A stretch of 41,961 nt of DNA. Source: a virus. The notes under the pieces are model-generated. The model worked only from the letters and a program-made list of their open reading frames with translations. It had not been told where the DNA came from and did not search any database. Below are positions 11,776-41,295 of the stretch, one piece after another (within the stretch, counting starts at the first letter, position 1; each line of letters starts with the position of its first letter). A program made the position numbers and the translations under genes. The DNA lies in IMG/VR virus record IMGVR_UViG_3300030061_003686, positions 2,027 through 43,987 of that record; one strand, given 5' to 3'.

Positions 11776-12147
11776 TTAATAGAGTACTCCAACTACTCTT
11801 TGGTCATTTACAAATATATCTATAAAGCAGCCGCTTCTTTCAGGTGTTTGAAAAAATTTAACCTGGACATCAACGACAAAGCCGTCCTGGCCAGTTAAAC
11901 AATATTCAACAACCTGCTGCCCGCATACATTTCTAATTGTATCTTCATTGCTTGTTAAAGAAAATATCATATCATCCAAATTACATCCAAAATCAGGTGC
12001 TCCTAAAACAGAAGTTCTTCGGGTAAATAATGTATTTTCAATCTTTATGATAAGATCATCTAACGCTTCGTCAACCTCTAACCTAGTATCTTGATATTTA
12101 GGTGCCTCGGTGTCTCTGCTATAAAAATCTCTTAAGTTATCTGCCAT
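11776..12147 (-). CDS. Baseplate wedge subunit gp25-like
   Basis: This 123-aa protein (T4 gp25 is 132 aa) is the small conserved wedge protein that joins sheath and baseplate and is shared by contractile phages and type VI secretion. Diagnostic features are a helical N-terminal half (DEALDDLIIKIENTLFTRRT), the motif SVLGAPDFGCNLDDMIFSLT and a short beta-rich C-terminus with FVVDVQVKFFQTPERSG. It lies directly upstream of gp6-like, as in T4. A promoter-like AATATATAAT box lies 11 nt before its ATG, so gp25, gp6 and the following genes may form their own late unit. Confidence 0.87.
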   Translation of the reverse strand: MADNLRDFYSRDTEAPKYQDTRLEVDEALDDLIIKIENTLFTRRTSVLGAPDFGCNLDDMIFSLTSNEDTIRNVCGQQVVEYCLTGQDGFVVDVQVKFFQTPERSGCFIDIFVNDQRVVGVLY

Positions 12148-13025: not shown

Positions 13026-14324
13026 TTATTTTATTTTTTCGTATTCAATTATTTCGACATCTTTAGAAAATCTTGCATGATTTGTATACTTTCCTTTTCT
13101 AAATACTCCACCATCCATCTCTCCACTGAAAACTCCTCTCCATCCATAAACGTAACAATTTTCAGCCATTACATTTCTGTTAACATAACAGTTATCAATT
13201 TTTGATGCGACAATATTAGTAGCACCGAATACGTTACAATCTATTAATGAAGAATTATTTATAGTAGATGAAAAGATATCACATTGTGTAACGTTGCCAT
13301 TAAGAGTACAATCAACAGCATCTATATCAGTCATTTCAAATATTCTTGGTAAATCTGCATTCTTTAATTGAATTCTTCCTATATCAGAATCATAGTTAAC
13401 CCAACCTTCTTCTAACCCAGCCTTTGTAATTAAATCAAATATCTTATCTCTCATTTTAACAAAATACATTTCCACAACATTTTCGCTAGAATTTAAATCA
13501 GCCATTAATTTAATATTAGGAAAGTATTCCTTGAATGAAGAATACGATTTCATTCCTCTGATAACAGATTTATGTTTTTCTAATATAACATCAAGTTGTT
13601 CAATATCTTCTTTAGAATATTTAGGGTTAACTAAAGTTTCGTATAATGATATAATAAAATGTTCTGTTAAGTTAAGTATTTTATTGTACTTTTTTTCGTA
13701 ATCTTTACCACCAATATATCTAAATTCGATATATCCCTTTGGAACTTTGCCAAAGTTAACACCATAATACTTTTCAGAAACAAACATATAGTTTTTTGAC
13801 AGAGTCTTTTCTGGTGAGGTTTGGTGGAAACCACTAAGTGGAGTAATAAATTTTATAGATTTTGCGTATACTGAATCTTTTCTTTCTGGGAATAATTCAA
13901 AAACTTTGTTTTCGTTAAAGCTTAAAACGAACTTACCGACATCAAGTTTACTTACATTTGTCTCAGGTCCTAATTTCTTGCCATCGAAAGCAAGATTAAC
14001 ATGAATAGAACATTTATCATTAGTGCTTCCATTTTCCTTTATCCATTTTAAAGTTTTAGCTAAAATTATTTTAGCCTCAACAAATGGAAGTGGTCCAGTA
14101 ACAAGTTCTATCATGCCACTTCCACCAGAACTATCAGGTTCAAGTTTAAAAGTTTTATCGGTTGGGGCATAGTCGCTGTGAGCCAGCTCTTCTATTCTAA
14201 TTTTTTTATCTAAGGTCTGACATAACGAAGTTTTAACCTCATTAATATCGCTTTTAGCAAAAAATTCAAATTCGAATCCTATCTTGGAAAAGTGGATCGC
14301 ATTAAGTTGTTCATTAGTATACAT
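13026..14324 (-). CDS. Glutamine-synthetase-fold amidoligase fused to a C-terminal beta-helix-like domain
   Basis: Enzymes of this family form amide bonds between a carboxylate and an amine using ATP. The family pattern is clear: IGFEFEF at residues 15-21 (metal-binding glutamates E18, E20), KLEPDSSG at 60-67, ELVTGPL at 73-79, SIHVNL at 106-111 (H108) and GVNFGKVPKGYIEFR at 188-202. Residues of about 205-320 are helical. From about residue 325 to 405 the sequence changes to short Cys/Asn/Ile-rich repeats (DCTLNGNVTQ, CDIFSSTINN, DCNVFGATNI, NCYVNRNVMA) that look like turns of a beta-helix or pentapeptide-like fold. The gene sits among baseplate genes, just downstream of the S1-like gene. Its start is preceded by a 12-bp hairpin with a promoter-like box in the loop. 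Substrate unknown: a host protein, a cell-wall peptide or a virion protein are all possible. Confidence 0.8.
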   Translation of the reverse strand: MYTNEQLNAIHFSKIGFEFEFFAKSDINEVKTSLCQTLDKKIRIEELAHSDYAPTDKTFKLEPDSSGGSGMIELVTGPLPFVEAKIILAKTLKWIKENGSTNDKCSIHVNLAFDGKKLGPETNVSKLDVGKFVLSFNENKVFELFPERKDSVYAKSIKFITPLSGFHQTSPEKTLSKNYMFVSEKYYGVNFGKVPKGYIEFRYIGGKDYEKKYNKILNLTEHFIISLYETLVNPKYSKEDIEQLDVILEKHKSVIRGMKSYSSFKEYFPNIKLMADLNSSENVVEMYFVKMRDKIFDLITKAGLEEGWVNYDSDIGRIQLKNADLPRIFEMTDIDAVDCTLNGNVTQCDIFSSTINNSSLIDCNVFGATNIVASKIDNCYVNRNVMAENCYVYGWRGVFSGEMDGGVFRKGKYTNHARFSKDVEIIEYEKIK

Positions 14325-14360
14325 ATTCTACCTGAATTTTTTTATATATTCAGGCAGAAT
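14325..14360 (-). promoter_or_regulatory. Hairpin covering the amidoligase translation start region
   Basis: On the minus strand ATTCTGCCTGAA (14360-14349) pairs with TTCAGGTAGAAT (14336-14325): 12 bp, 11 Watson-Crick and one G-U pair, with a 12-nt loop. The right arm ends at the base directly before the ATG. It would form in transcripts reading through from the S1-like gene. There is no T-tract after it, so attenuation of translation is likelier than termination. Confidence 0.65.
14341..14350 (-). promoter_or_regulatory. Late-promoter-like box inside the hairpin loop
   Basis: The minus strand reads AATATATAAA, ending 16 nt before the amidoligase ATG. It occupies most of the loop of the hairpin at 14325-14360, overlapping the left arm by 2 nt. 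A transcript started from this box would lack the left arm of the hairpin. Confidence 0.55.
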
Positions 14361-14376
14361 TGTATATTAAATATTA

Positions 14377-15522
14377 TTAGACTAAAGAAAGAGATACCTT
14401 TCTTTCTTGTGGTTGTACACCTTTAATTTTAACAGTAACGATATCACCTTTGGTTAATTCAACTTCTTTGAGTTGTGATTTGTGAATTAGTCCACTTATA
14501 CCTTTTTCTAATTGAATAAATGCACCATAGTTAGTTATCTTTGTAACTTTACCTTCAGCTTCTGACATAGGAGTATACTTTTTTGCAGCTTCTTCCCATG
14601 GATCAATTGGTGCACCGGCTTGAGTTAAAATTATTTTCTTATTTGAAATAATTTCTTTAACCCAGAATGTAATTTCATCCCCGGCTTTAATATCTCGATC
14701 ATTAAAACCTGTAATTGAATGAGTTAATTCAGCTTTAGGTATTAAGCCTGTAAGACATTCATTAAATTGAGCAAATATTCCAAAGGCGGTGGTACCTGTA
14801 ACGAAACCTGTAATTTGCTCTTTTGAATTTTCTCTTAATTCTTCAATTCTTGTAGGAACCATTGTTTGTAAATATGCTCTATGCGATACTACGATGGTAT
14901 CCTTTTCTCTTGAATATGTAATTGGCATTACCACAATATCTTTACCAATTAAGGATTCAAAGTTATGTAACTTATTCATCCCTGCTAAAGAACCTGGCAT
15001 AAATGTTTTTATTCCAGCAACATCAACCCAATAACCTCCATGAATTAATTCCTTTATTCTTGCGGTAAACCCTACCGACTTATCTCCAATAGCATCAAAG
15101 ATTTCTTTTCTCTTAACAGCTTCTATTGCTTCTGATATACTTCCAACAATTTCACCATTACCTTTTGGCTTAATTTTAATATCAACATGCATGCCAACTT
15201 CTAATTGGTCAACAATAGTAGCATCTTCTTTTTTAAGGTTAATGTAAGATGTAAATTTATTACCAACATCCACTAATGCTTCAGTAGGAACACCTTCATC
15301 GTTTCTTTTAATACTGACTACTTCCCCTTTTGTAATTTGTTCTTGGTCTTCGGCAATATTAATATCTGATTTAGATGGCATTTCCCCAATAGTCTTTTCT
15401 AAATAATCTAAGACATAAGGTTCAGTTGAAAGTACCTTCATACCTTTTGGTAATTTAACGGTTACTTCTTCGATGTCAAATGGATCATCGCTTTTTTGAA
15501 TTTTGATAATTTGTTCTTCCAT
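14377..15522 (-). CDS. Multi-domain ribosomal protein S1-like RNA-binding protein
   Basis: The 381-aa protein has four S1-type OB-folds, at about residues 63-131, 147-216, 234-303 and 320-381. Domain 2 has the bacterial-S1-like FMPGSLAGMNKL segment. Domain 3 has FVTGTTAFGIFAQFNECLTG, and domain 4 the classic VTKITNYGAFIQLEKGISGL, then IHKSQL and RKVSLSLV. The 60-residue N-terminal part is not an S1 fold. Bacterial S1 (about 6 domains) brings mRNA to the 30S ribosome, and a shortened phage version could redirect initiation or protect phage RNA. This matters because phage genes here lack Shine-Dalgarno sites. It lies 52 bp before the amidoligase and has its own promoter-like box. The S1 fold is certain; the ribosome role is inferred. 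Confidence 0.85.
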   Translation of the reverse strand: MEEQIIKIQKSDDPFDIEEVTVKLPKGMKVLSTEPYVLDYLEKTIGEMPSKSDINIAEDQEQITKGEVVSIKRNDEGVPTEALVDVGNKFTSYINLKKEDATIVDQLEVGMHVDIKIKPKGNGEIVGSISEAIEAVKRKEIFDAIGDKSVGFTARIKELIHGGYWVDVAGIKTFMPGSLAGMNKLHNFESLIGKDIVVMPITYSREKDTIVVSHRAYLQTMVPTRIEELRENSKEQITGFVTGTTAFGIFAQFNECLTGLIPKAELTHSITGFNDRDIKAGDEITFWVKEIISNKKIILTQAGAPIDPWEEAAKKYTPMSEAEGKVTKITNYGAFIQLEKGISGLIHKSQLKEVELTKGDIVTVKIKGVQPQERKVSLSLV

Positions 15523-15550: not shown

Positions 15551-15560
15551 ATTATATATT
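15551..15560 (-). promoter_or_regulatory. Late-promoter-like box before the S1-like gene
   Basis: The minus strand reads AATATATAAT, ending 28 nt before the S1-like ATG, in a 101-bp gap (15523-15623) that is otherwise plain A/T-rich sequence. Its spacing is longer than at the other boxes. The gap separates the S1-amidoligase pair from the spike genes upstream. Confidence 0.45.
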
Positions 15561-15623: not shown

Positions 15624-16175
15624 TTATTTTAAGGCAACCCAAGGAAAAACATATGGGATTGGTGAAGGTGCAGCTGGCGCAGTACCAGTCCATAAACCGG
15701 CTACTGTTTTAAGATGACTCTTAAATGCAGAGTCTAAAGCATCAGCAACTAAATAAGGATCTTCCTTTTGAAAAGCTCTACCAATTTGAAAATTAAGAGG
15801 AGTAGGTAATCCTGGAAAGGTTGTTACATTAGCTGCTCCTACTAAACCACCGGGCGGTGGAGGCATAGGTGTAAATGGTACAGCCGTCCAATATGCAACT
15901 ATTGAAGTGGCGGCAGGTAACCAGACCAAGGGAGAAGGTTTACCTATTTTCATTATTCTTGCAAGTTTAAATGATGCAATAAAACCAGCCGCAATAATTT
16001 GATTAGGTTTAAGAATAGCAGGTTTAGAAGCTGAATACATTATTGGGTTAACCGACCTAGCGGCACGACCATAAGTTAATGCAATCTCTTCAGCAGTGGC
16101 TTGATCTGACGATGCATTGTTTGCTGCAAGCCAAGCACCTAATGCATTTTTAAATAAACTTGAACCCCAACTCAT
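15624..16175 (-). CDS. 183-aa Ala/Pro-rich protein next to the spike gene
   Basis: The protein starts MSWGSSLFKNALGAWLAANN and is rich in Ala and Pro. It has a moderately hydrophobic middle (PLVWLPAATSIVAYWTAVPF) followed by TPMPPPPGG. No catalytic motif was seen. The hydrophobic stretch is broken by prolines and is not a clear membrane helix. Its ATG overlaps the stop of the gp5-like spike gene by one base (TAATG), which points to coupled translation and a linked role, for example a spike tip or a spike assembly partner. I do not recognise the family. Confidence 0.65.
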   Translation of the reverse strand: MSWGSSLFKNALGAWLAANNASSDQATAEEIALTYGRAARSVNPIMYSASKPAILKPNQIIAAGFIASFKLARIMKIGKPSPLVWLPAATSIVAYWTAVPFTPMPPPPGGLVGAANVTTFPGLPTPLNFQIGRAFQKEDPYLVADALDSAFKSHLKTVAGLWTGTAPAAPSPIPYVFPWVALK

Positions 16176-17047
16176 TAGTCAGTTTTATTTTTAGTACTTA
16201 AGGCAGAACCCATAGAAATTGTAGGTGGCCCAGAAGGACCAACACCAGTAGGATGTATATGAGCATCAAAGATTCCTTTAAATGTATCTCCTTTAATTAC
16301 AGCTTCAGCTGCAAGTTCTCCTAACTTTATACTTGGTGAATTAATATGAGTTTCAGCACTAGCCGAAATTTTTGCATTTACACAGTTAACTTCAACATCA
16401 GCACTTGCATTAACAGTAACAGTACCTGAATGAGTAAGAGTAACATTTCCATCATTTGACATTACAATAGAATCTCCATTGGCATTAGTTACTTCAAATG
16501 AATTATCGTTCTTTACATTAATAACAGTTGAACCATCAGCCGTTGCATAGTCAATAACAAAACCTTTTTCTTCAGTAAAGAATACTTTAATACCTTCACC
16601 TTCTTGTTCATTAGTAGCTTCAGATGTACTATCGCTTAAACCAAATGCAGTATCATAAATTAATACATGAGCATTTTGATATGAAGGTTCAACTTCAGCT
16701 TTTAATTCATCTGATGGATAAATGTTATAGTGGTATGTAGGCGCATAAATATCACCATTGTCAAATGTAATTTGAATTTCACTACCTATCTTAGGAATAT
16801 CCAATTTACCACCACCTGAATTACTACCACCACCTGAACTATTTGCAGGTCTTGACCAAGGCAAATTTTCAGTAGGTATAATATATGCACTTTCTGGATC
16901 TGTAGGGTCGACTCTACCATCAAACTTACCGTATACTCTTACTTTTACACGACCTTCAAATTTAGGATCATTAGTATCTTCAACAAGACCAACCCATTGA
17001 GTGCCTGTTAAATTATCCTGTGCAAACTCTGCGCTTCCTATTTTCAT
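16175..17047 (-). CDS. Baseplate central spike, gp5/gpV-like, without lysozyme domain
   Basis: The product would form the trimeric membrane-piercing spike beneath the tail tube. Residues of about 15-100 form the gp5/gpV OB-fold (GTQWVGLVEDTNDPKFEGRV, then KVRVYGKFDG and SEIQITFDNGDIYAPTYHYN). From about residue 170 a beta-helical needle follows (NSFEVTNANGDSIVMSNDGN, TVNASADVEVNCVNAKISAS). The end carries the spike-type signature IFDAHIHPTGVGPSGPP, whose histidines may bind metal. T4 gp5 has a lysozyme between OB-fold and needle; at 290 aa this one has none, so it is closer to P2 gpV. It overlaps both neighbours by one base (TAATG), marking a coupled hub-spike unit. Confidence 0.87.
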   Translation of the reverse strand: MKIGSAEFAQDNLTGTQWVGLVEDTNDPKFEGRVKVRVYGKFDGRVDPTDPESAYIIPTENLPWSRPANSSGGGSNSGGGKLDIPKIGSEIQITFDNGDIYAPTYHYNIYPSDELKAEVEPSYQNAHVLIYDTAFGLSDSTSEATNEQEGEGIKVFFTEEKGFVIDYATADGSTVINVKNDNSFEVTNANGDSIVMSNDGNVTLTHSGTVTVNASADVEVNCVNAKISASAETHINSPSIKLGELAAEAVIKGDTFKGIFDAHIHPTGVGPSGPPTISMGSALSTKNKTD

Positions 17048-35462: not shown

Positions 35463-35547
35463 GTTATTTAATTATATTTAAATATAATCAATTTTATTGG
35501 GAAAAAAAAATTTTTGCACAACTTTTTTTAAAAAGTTATTAACAATT
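35463..35547 (-). repeat. 85-bp repeated regulatory element, copy 1 (before DNA ligase)
   Basis: This copy aligns without gaps to 41211-41295 with 76 of 85 bases identical. It contains a perfect 18-bp palindrome ATTATATTTAAATATAAT (35471-35488), a C/T-run (CCCAAT after a T-tract on the minus strand), and an 18-bp near-perfect inverted repeat AACTTTTTTTAAAAAGTT (35520-35537) beside GTTATTAACAATT. It starts just after the preceding gene stops and ends 18 nt before the ligase ATG. A promoter cassette for early or middle genes, perhaps with a built-in weak terminator, is the likely role. Confidence 0.75.
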
Positions 35548-35811: not shown

Positions 35812-36102
35812 TTAAGTATTAGCTATCATCTTTAATAGCTTATCTAAATCTCCACACTTTTCGTATTCTTCTCTATCCTTAAAATAGTTGATAAGTTTAT
35901 TTAGACCTCTAAGTTTTATTTGAGTATCTTGCCCGTGAGATAGCATCTCTTCTGGGGATTCGACTAATGCTTTATAGCATAGTCTATAATAATGATCTAT
36001 TGAATCAGTCTCTAACTTGTCTAAAAACTTTTTAATATTATTTAAATCTTCTCCTTCAAATTCTTGATTTTCGAAGTCATCCCAGTTATCCATCCTTTTC
36101 AT
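35812..36102 (-). CDS. 96-aa acidic helical protein after DnaJ
   Basis: Its start overlaps the DnaJ gene by 17 bp; a second in-frame ATG three codons in would still overlap. The protein is acidic at the N-terminus ([20 protein letters not shown]) and helical afterwards ([20 protein letters not shown]), ending [17 protein letters not shown]. The end resembles that of the 105-aa protein at 33756. Tight overlap with the chaperone suggests linked expression. No family is recognised. Confidence 0.6.
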
Positions 36103-36946
36103 TATTATTTGTTTTATCTATTCGTAACTCTTTTAACTTTTTAAATAATTCAATTTCTTCATGGGTCAGATTAGTAGGTATATCTACAAAGATGGAAACT
36201 AAAAGATTTCCATACTGACCTTCTTTTTTCCACAGAGGCATTCCCTTTCCACGTATTCTTAAAACTTTACCATGAGATGTTGCTTTAGGTACATTAAAAC
36301 TTATAGTCTTATCAAAAATTTGTAAGGTTTGTTTACCTCCTAATACAGCATCATATAAATCAATATGAACAACAGTATGCAATCCTTGTGGATCTAAATA
36401 AAACTTTTGTGTGTTAAGTACTTCTATCACCAAAACCAAATCACCATGCAAATCTTCAGTCATTCCTTTTTGGCCTTTTCCTTTAAGTCTTAAATTTTGT
36501 CCACTGGTCGCACCAGGTGGAATCTTAACATCAAAGCTTGACATTGCAACTGAAATTCTACGAGTGGTTCCAAAATAAGATTCTTCTAATGTAATCTGAA
36601 TACTTGACTTAATGTCTCTACCCTTTCCTCTTTCGTTATACCCATACCTATTGTTGAACATATCAGCGAAGCCACTATTCCTAAGTATATCCTCAAACAT
36701 ACTGTCATCCATGTTACCTCCTTGGAAATTACCAAAAGGATTTTGCTTTCTTTGGTATTCGGCTTTCTTTTTAGGATCACTTAAAATGCCATAAGCTTCT
36801 GATATCTTTTTAAACTTTTCTTCTGCTTTAGGATCATCTTGGTTTTTATCAGGATGAAACTTTAATGCAAGCTTACGGTATGATTTCTTAACCTCAGTAT
36901 CTGTTGCATTTTGAGGTACTTCTAGTATGTCGTATAATTCTTTCAT
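36086..36946 (-). CDS. DnaJ/Hsp40 co-chaperone, zinc-finger-less (class B, CbpA-like)
   Basis: Residues 1-65 form the J-domain: [20 protein letters not shown], then the invariant HPD at 31-33 that stimulates DnaK ATP hydrolysis, and a C-terminal helix [17 protein letters not shown] short G/F-type linker ([10 protein letters not shown]) follows. The two substrate-binding beta domains are in residues about 110-285 ([40 protein letters not shown]). There are no CXXCXGXG repeats, so it is class B. It probably recruits host DnaK for phage protein folding, for example for the large fibre and baseplate proteins. It overlaps the membrane-protein gene upstream by 4 bp (ATGA). Confidence 0.9.
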
Positions 36947-39261: not shown

Positions 39262-39777
39262 TTATATGTCCATTTCATTTTGTATAATATTTAATTCTTT
39301 TTGTACTTTGCCCCAATAATGTTTTGTGGCTTTTCTTTTATACCCTCTGGGTCCACCGTTCCAACATCTTGCGATTGCTTCAAGGCTATCTTCACTATGG
39401 TGGTACTCTTGCCAAACATAAAACATTTCAATTGACTTCTCTCTCGACCATCTATCGTCTAATGTAAATCTTCTTTCTTTCTTTTCTTTCTTTAGAATTC
39501 GATTTACTTCTTTGACCATAACAGGTCGGATCTGTAAACATCCTATAGAAGGTCTTCCTAAATGTCTATCACCTACACAACTATCTTTACCTCTACTTTC
39601 AACTTGTATGATTGCATTTAGCAAAGTTTCTACTGTATCTATTCTTTTATCTTCTATCGCAGTATGAATAACAATATCCTCTAGGCAGAAGTAATCTTTT
39701 GTTACTTCAAGTTTAGGCGCTGTAAATAAGACAACGAAAATTAGATCTACGACAATAAATAAGCTTATGTATTTCAT
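39262..39777 (-). CDS. Membrane-anchored lytic transglycosylase/lysozyme (SLT-like)
   Basis: A hydrophobic segment at residues 3-20 (YISLFIVVDLIFVVLFTA) acts as signal or anchor. The catalytic domain has the SLT/goose-lysozyme pattern: AIIQVESRGKDSCVGD with the likely catalytic E60, IGCLQIRPVMVKEVNR (residues about 78-93) and AIARCWNGGPRGYKRKAT (about 134-151). It would cut the glycan strands of peptidoglycan in the periplasm, most likely for host lysis, because the spike here has no lysozyme. Its ATG shares a base with the stop of the PspC-like gene (TAATG). It is convergent with the plus-strand triad, with a 35-bp gap that has no clear terminator. Confidence 0.8.
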   Translation of the reverse strand: MKYISLFIVVDLIFVVLFTAPKLEVTKDYFCLEDIVIHTAIEDKRIDTVETLLNAIIQVESRGKDSCVGDRHLGRPSIGCLQIRPVMVKEVNRILKKEKKERRFTLDDRWSREKSIEMFYVWQEYHHSEDSLEAIARCWNGGPRGYKRKATKHYWGKVQKELNIIQNEMDI

Positions 39778-40177: not shown

Positions 40178-40648
40178 TTAAAAGTCACCTTGTGCTACTT
40201 GGAAGCAGCTTAGGTCATTATCTCTCCACATCTGAACGACTTTATTTCTGTCATCAAATACGGTAAGTATTCTGTCTTTTTGATCACCGGGGAAAATATC
40301 ATCCAACCACTGCTGTTTTAGTTTATCATCCGGCATAAAAGCCCAGGGATGGCTAGTCGGTCTCATTTTCAAAACATGATGTGGTACATTAAATTGAGTT
40401 AACCAATCTTTGGTAGCATCTTTAGTTGCTTTACTTCTCCCAGAGAAAATCACTATCTTAAAACCTTGGTCATGAAATGTTTGTGCCATCTTTATGACAG
40501 CATGATTAGGTTTGTCAAGTGCGATGTTTGCTGGATCAAAGAAAGTTTTCCAGTCCATCTTTCCACTTGGTAATTTTGAAATTGATCTTCTTTTGTCGAT
40601 ATCAGCTAATGTACCGTCTAAGTCAAATATGATTGTATCTTTTGTCAT
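40178..40648 (-). CDS. PNKP-type 3'-phosphatase domain protein (HAD superfamily)
   Basis: The 156-aa protein matches the phosphatase half of T4 polynucleotide kinase-phosphatase. The nucleophile pair is D9/D11 in IIFDLDGTLADIDKR, motif II is FSGRSKATK (residues 68-76), and motif IV is VFDDRNKVVQMW (130-141). The characteristic end is LSCFQVAQGDF. The kinase P-loop domain is absent here, so it is a stand-alone 3'-phosphatase, removing 3'-phosphates from DNA or RNA ends so that ligase can act. It is transcribed with the small genes behind the 85-bp element copy 2. Confidence 0.85.
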   Translation of the reverse strand: MTKDTIIFDLDGTLADIDKRRSISKLPSGKMDWKTFFDPANIALDKPNHAVIKMAQTFHDQGFKIVIFSGRSKATKDATKDWLTQFNVPHHVLKMRPTSHPWAFMPDDKLKQQWLDDIFPGDQKDRILTVFDDRNKVVQMWRDNDLSCFQVAQGDF

Positions 40649-41210: not shown

Positions 41211-41295
41211 GTTATTTAATTATATTTAAATATAATCAAAATAATTGGGATAAAAAAATTCTAGCCAAACTTTTTTCAAAAAGTTATTAACAATT
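41211..41295 (-). repeat. 85-bp repeated regulatory element, copy 2
   Basis: This is the partner of copy 1, aligning without gaps with nine mismatches in the 85 positions. The 18-bp palindrome (41219-41236) is unchanged, and the inverted repeat AACTTTTTTCAAAAAGTT lies at 41268-41285. Differences fall between these two parts. It begins at the stop of the 108-aa gene and ends 14 nt before the next ATG. Confidence 0.75.

Follow-up and report, generated by a model that had tools for sequence, protein, structure and literature searches.

How might the expression of a phage enzyme be governed when its start codon lies at the foot of an RNA hairpin that also encloses a promoter-like box? This question is raised by the window analysed here (the whole stretch of viral DNA, 41,961 nt in length), a 42-kb piece of a huge-phage-like genome whose nearest named record is LR756500 (462 kb; 43% protein identity in the ligase considered below). 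A precedent is found in bacteriophage T4, where a combined logic of hairpin and late promoter has been described for e, soc, 49 and I-TevI (PMC3014915; PMC2988022), masking in the T4 cases being counted as that of the Shine-Dalgarno (SD) sequence and/or the AUG (PMC3014915). A first-pass annotation of the window had proposed that a similar timing switch controls an amidoligase gene, with read-through early RNA folding over the start and late RNA beginning inside the hairpin.

The ligase gene and the hairpin at its start

The gene in question belongs to a minus-strand baseplate cluster that runs leftward from a hub/spike gene (16175-17047) through an S1-domain gene to the ligase, and then to a weak head-tail-adaptor match, a gp25-like wedge and a gp6-like wedge. 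In most clusters of relatives, 40-59 nt separate the stop codon of the S1-domain gene from the ligase ATG; in the window the gap measures 52 nt and folds into the hairpin. The two genes, and a further box upstream of them, are located as follows:

13026..14324, minus strand: 432-aa ligase of predicted amidoligase/glutamine-synthetase fold with a C-terminal pentapeptide-like beta-helix, its start masked (profile and structure model)
14377..15522, minus strand: S1 RNA-binding-domain gene, directly upstream of the ligase in almost all relatives (PF00575, E 5e-21; synteny)
15552..15560, minus strand: AATATATAA, a late-promoter-like box that precedes the S1-domain gene and is conserved in relatives

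The 432-aa protein is predicted to be a ligase of the amidoligase/glutamine-synthetase fold. Profile searches among its relatives returned PF12224 (Amidoligase_2, E 4.5e-5) together with pentapeptide matches, and the AlphaFold model (pLDDT 88.9) retrieved glutamine synthetases (E 9e-6) and many phage models named "amidoligase enzyme" in Foldseek. TM-scores to solved glutamine synthetases are low, at about 0.3, and we therefore stop at naming the protein a ligase of this fold. No relatives of the ligase were found in cellular genomes.

The manner in which these phages begin translation bears directly on what a masked start could mean. Across the lineage (contigs G001-G011 and the window), SD-like sequences precede only 2-10% of starts, which is near the shuffled level, and AGG(A) is confined to some of the A-clade 3' arms. 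Leaders in the same set, all from phages encoding an S1-domain protein, are about 50-58% A and without SD sequences. Huge phages with rpS1 have likewise been reported to rarely possess SD sequences (Al-Shayeb et al. 2020, PMC7162821), and since SD sequences are rare both there and here, S1 may take part in initiation. A sequestered SD sequence was looked for and not found in these phages, being a feature of the E. coli cases. What is masked in the window is the start codon together with the short leader, by the following elements:

14348..14360, minus strand: 5' arm of the core stem, AUUCUGCCUGAAU (RNA fold)
14338..14347, minus strand: unpaired 10-nt loop, AUAUAAAAAA (RNA fold)
14325..14337, minus strand: 3' arm of the core stem, AUUCAGGUAGAAU, abutting the AUG (RNA fold)
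14361..14366, minus strand: upstream side of the lower stem, UAUACA, pairing with 14323-14318 (RNA fold)
14318..14323, minus strand: start-codon side of the lower stem, UGUAUA (+2..+7), pairing with 14361-14366 (RNA fold)
14341..14350, minus strand: late-promoter-like box AATATATAAA, invariant in A-clade relatives, its motif enriched before genes on the sense strand only

When positions 14290-14376 of the minus strand are folded as RNA, the core stem comprises 13 pairs (14360-14348 with 14337-14325), one of them G.U. The A of the ligase AUG (14324) is the base immediately following this stem, the lower stem takes in what remains of the start codon along with the second codon, and 3 further pairs beyond it bring the hairpin to 22 pairs in total. 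Its minimum free energy is -21.6 kcal/mol, against a mean of -7.0 (sd 2.4) for dinucleotide-shuffled sequences (z -6.1), and none of 200 shuffles was as stable; folded as -45..+15, the region gives a z of -7.75. A hairpin with a box is thus present at the ligase start, as the first-pass annotation had observed, and the RNA folding that it had called for yields a stable start-masking stem with z of about -6 to -8. Two of its details require adjustment. The stem that it placed directly before the ATG is correctly positioned and laid out, but was given as 12 bp and is one pair longer; the box that it placed inside the loop lies there only in part, as AATATATAAA straddles the loop and the top three pairs of the 5' arm. 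Its description of the neighbouring gene as a translation protein agrees with the S1 RNA-binding domains found there.

The box as a candidate late promoter

Within the window the box occurs 3 times where 1.2 occurrences are expected, a frequency that is not significant by itself and was not used as evidence; its significance consequently rests on relatives. We surveyed ten contigs of the lineage, amounting to about 1 Mb, of which G002 and G003 overlap heavily and in which genes were taken as simple longest-ORF calls. Among 8-mers lying 10-45 nt before genes, GATATATA showed the strongest enrichment in five of these contigs, while AATATATA or ATATATAA ranked top or second in the others. Orientation is strongly biased, with 146 sense and 4 antisense occurrences in the upstream 80 nt, and the box mostly stands 20-45 nt before the ATG. 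The consensus continues downstream, ATATATAA being followed by an A-rich stretch in which C is allowed at one place, and this accounts for the AAACAAA that is conserved in the loop. Genes bearing the box include those for the portal, the head maturation protease, the tail tube, the baseplate wedge and, weakly, the small terminase. The version of the box is clade-specific, and that in the hairpin matches the version preceding other genes of its own clade. On the grounds of motif statistics and gene content, we take the box to be a late promoter. A loose motif scan of viral contigs for TTGAATATATAAANCAA retrieved mostly unrelated contigs.

A T4-type late sigma factor is encoded by the lineage. 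The family of T4 gp55 (phrog_234, identified via T4 gp55 itself) is represented in the six longest contigs (G001-G004, G006 and G007; E 4e-14 to 6e-11) and, among six named records of huge or jumbo phages, in five. Our first guess at the sigma family, phrog_297, gave no match, and a sigma-70 scan remained at chance level. The clamp family of T4 gp45 (phrog_223), on which clamp-coupled activation would depend, was found in one megaphage only.

Possession of the box does not in general entail a structured start. The 144 box-bearing gene starts of the ten contigs have a median fold z of 0.03, and the ligase ranks at the top among them. When 16 box-bearing ortholog families are compared by mean z, the ligase stands at -3.2 and the gp25-like gene at -1.3, with all others at -0.5 or above. 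The strong hairpin is therefore a special feature of the ligase gene among box-bearing families.

Upstream of the DNA ligase gene, and of others in a replication-type block, there is a second motif, TGATTATATTTA(A/T)A. Written as TTGATTATATTTA(A/T)A, it is distinct from the late box, stands before DNA ligase and replication-type or small genes, and recurs at 105-124 kb of contig G001; it is probably an early promoter. Two copies on the strand of the amidoligase-type gene, about 21 and 27 kb upstream of it, are the nearest early-type promoters:

35471..35490, minus strand: early-type promoter element preceding the DNA ligase gene, TGATTATATTTAAATATAAT (motif)
41219..41238, minus strand: second early-type promoter element, identical in sequence to the first (motif)

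The probable early block also holds a DnaJ-type chaperone with J and C-terminal domains (36086-36946), a weak SLT transglycosylase match (39262-39777) and a polynucleotide-kinase phosphatase domain (40178-40648).

Pairing and its variants in relatives

We gathered 270 relatives of the ligase with a readable start, representing 83 distinct upstream regions and 27 clusters at 80% identity. Most of them keep a start-masking hairpin, down to roughly 40% protein identity and with unrelated arm sequences, and every hairpin-bearing lineage has an [A/G]ATATATA box in the loop or the 5' arm. Absence of the stem from close relatives had been named by the first-pass annotation as grounds against its reading; almost every close relative has the hairpin, and distant ones build it from other arms. 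Of the 23 cluster representatives in which the script found a box, 17 gave z < -2 when -45..+15 was folded, and two others gave values near -1.8, bearing in mind that automatic assignment of start and box can err (L271 was scored on a second ATATAT in its 3' arm, the upstream box lying in the 5' arm).

Entire pairs of arms have been exchanged around a retained box, as in TCCTGGTTTG/CAAATCAGGA, ACCAGGTTTAA/TTAAACCTGGT, ACTTGAATT/AATTCAAGT and AGAGTGTGATAT/ATATCATACTCT, and in L244 the arms, again with the box retained, are a 21-bp repeat. Because the arms are wholly different between clades, the feature that they have in common is pairing. The L279/L305 group, whose S1-domain gene and ligase are separated by an inserted gene, has lost the usual stem; there, TTAGAATATAT pairs with the start region AUGUAUUCUAA, and the new stem joins the box itself to the first codons. 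At one position of this stem L286 has a G-C pair in place of the A-U of L305, the coding-side change being a silent change of serine codon, and at the same position L312 breaks the pair. Formal covariation is modest inside any one clade because close relatives are nearly identical, and as the arms are in a different register from clade to clade, folds of each lineage were used in place of column-by-column covariation (alignments A4/A5). At the non-Watson-Crick positions of the repeats, read on the coding strand, G.U outnumbers A.C by 25 to 9 (p 0.005; related clusters were counted separately and a few spurious repeats are included), a bias that argues for RNA as opposed to a DNA dyad.

Conservation is not universal. 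Two clusters that keep the box have no convincing hairpin (L285, z +1.35; L235, z -0.01), nor was one present in more distant phages of 462-735 kb, and the hairpin is accordingly not obligatory.

Two groups have an open reading frame interposed between S1-domain gene and ligase, one of 135 aa (L186/L187/L278/L279) and the other of 164 aa (L002/L179/L254). Neither group retains the original hairpin, whose place is taken by pairing between the box and the first codons.

A putative promoter-choice switch and its alternatives

Considered together, the hairpin, its conservation despite new arms, the promoter-like box, the geometry of these elements and the sigma factor of relatives make it probable that a promoter-choice switch like that of T4 gene e or I-TevII governs translation of the ligase. 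Read-through RNA from any upstream promoter would carry both arms, such that the hairpin would hide the start codon and the short leader and the ligase would not be made from this RNA. A polymerase bearing a gp55-type late sigma would start at the [A/G]ATATATA box within the hairpin, and the resulting RNA, beginning about 6 nt past the box and devoid of the 5' arm, would have some 10-25 nt of open leader and be translated; in the window, the 3' arm would constitute the entire leader. The ligase would thereby be made only when, and in the amount that, its own late promoter fires. The start of this RNA is predicted at:

14334..14338, minus strand: predicted 5' end of the box-started RNA, nominally 14336, assuming the spacing of T4, some 6 nt past the box

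The pairs of the hairpin cross this predicted site, and the leader opens once the upstream sequence is removed. In silico deletion of all sequence upstream of the predicted start raises the mean unpaired probability of -15..+3 from 0.16 to 0.55 in the window, from 0.18 to 0.87 in L008 and from 0.22 to 0.91 in L222; where a real hairpin is missing, the effect is negligible (L235) or small (L285).

We infer the exact 5' end, the block to translation and the identity of the silenced read-through RNA, which would be an early transcript or a late one from the S1-domain gene. Of the timing switch first proposed, the comparison with a hairpin around an internal promoter has held up, while its early-read-through half is uncertain given the late-type box of the S1-domain gene and the remoteness of the early-type promoters. 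Since the S1-domain gene has such a box, "own promoter versus read-through" is safer wording than "early versus late": the silenced RNA may come from any upstream promoter, late ones included, and early/late timing is one possible consequence of the switch. Late read-through RNA must therefore coexist with the short RNA, and the benefit in timing is less obvious than in T4.

Run on T4, the same script finds the layout for e, 49, segB and I-TevII, which share the geometry reported here, as the first-pass annotation had supposed of T4 genes. The resemblance to gene e is in the sequestration of the start region on a longer RNA, in a late RNA that starts inside and without the 5' strand, and in a T4-type late sigma (PMC3014915), the late promoters of gene e being located at the 5' arm of its leader hairpin. 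In T4, however, a strong SD is sequestered, whereas here the AUG and a short leader are masked and SD sequences are not used; moreover, gene e is preceded by early genes, and the ligase, as a member of a baseplate cluster, by an S1-domain gene that itself has a late-type box. In I-TevII, the late box TATAAATA stands in the hairpin loop, as in the A-clade here, and hairpins of the same logic occur at I-TevI, I-TevIII and segB (PMC2988022), although these homing endonucleases are mobile genes on early or middle transcripts of host genes and the ligase gene is resident and conserved, with relatives numbering in the hundreds. Soc and gene 49 are likewise late genes with a masked start, gene 49 having a late-type box in the 5' arm (PMC3014915), but they belong to other gene classes and initiate in an SD-dependent manner. 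The huge phages of Al-Shayeb et al. (2020) carry related ligases in records such as LR756500 and, as here, an S1-domain gene and few SD sequences; late promoters are not mentioned in the main text of that study (PMC7162821).

Four other explanations deserve consideration. The first is translational coupling, in which the hairpin would mask the ligase on a joint S1-ligase mRNA until a ribosome terminating on S1 opens it, ligase output would be proportional to S1, and the box would be an extra promoter. The short distance between the genes suits this explanation, as the 5' arm begins a few to about 16 nt after the S1 stop, and so does the loss or replacement of the original hairpin in the two groups with an intervening gene. 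Coupling nonetheless leaves unexplained why every hairpin lineage has a late-promoter box in its loop or 5' arm, and it sits poorly with L279, where a new start-masking stem built from the box itself accompanies the inserted 135-aa gene, and with L309, where a hairpin-like repeat persists across a gap of 106 nt. We regard it as unlikely. Still less probable is an action in trans of the phage S1-domain protein, opening or clamping the hairpin so that the ligase would be an S1-regulated target: the order of S1, hairpin and ligase is conserved across clades and the rarity of SD sequences in rpS1-bearing phages is in keeping with it, yet the arms share no sequence, and conservation of the loop is explained by the general promoter consensus.

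The remaining two can be given very little credence. An inverted repeat around a promoter-like box could serve as a DNA operator, bound by a repressor dimer, or as a cruciform, but this DNA-dyad reading was rejected on the unrelated arms that often run into the start codon, the G.U bias on the coding strand and the want of such a fold at the other boxes of the same genomes. A hairpin for RNA processing or stability, or a terminator, would be at home in the intergenic gap of a co-directional cluster, but a processing site needs no start codon and the stem abuts or includes it in all clades, the box in the loop would go unexplained, and an intrinsic terminator was rejected, there being no GC-rich stem with a T-run, no T-run after the stem and no terminator on the minus strand in a scan that stayed at chance level.

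Should the promoter-choice switch be correct, it would mean that a textbook mode of T4 control, described for a few coliphage genes, also operates in a widespread group of uncultured huge phages, and would supply natural variants in which the fold is kept and the sequence is not. It also provides these phages with a candidate clade-specific late-promoter motif linked to a sigma factor of gp55 type, points to one enzyme of obscure purpose as apparently needing tight control of expression, and suggests that structure alone can gate initiation where SD sequences are absent. More tentatively, and with slightly less than even confidence, we entertain a broader reading: that a T4-style device has been kept or rebuilt many times in a large SD-less lineage of huge phages, nearly always on the one gene for a glutamine-synthetase-fold ligase beside an S1-domain protein; that masking of the start codon combined with an internal late promoter may be a general phage solution without SD pairing; and that expressing the ligase too much or at the wrong time may be costly.

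Similar arrangements may occur at two further genes. The gp25-like wedge gene (11776-12147), two places downstream of the ligase, shares with its orthologues in L002, L007, G005, G009 and G011 a conserved late-type box, which in several relatives lies in a hairpin, GAGAATAT..ATATTCTC, that ends at the ATG; by its mean z this appears to be a weaker second case of the ligase layout. A possible third case, seen in two contigs only, is a gene of 1565-1584 aa (G001 at 156532; G005) in which the box is flanked by TATCTTTT..GAAAGATA just before the ATG.
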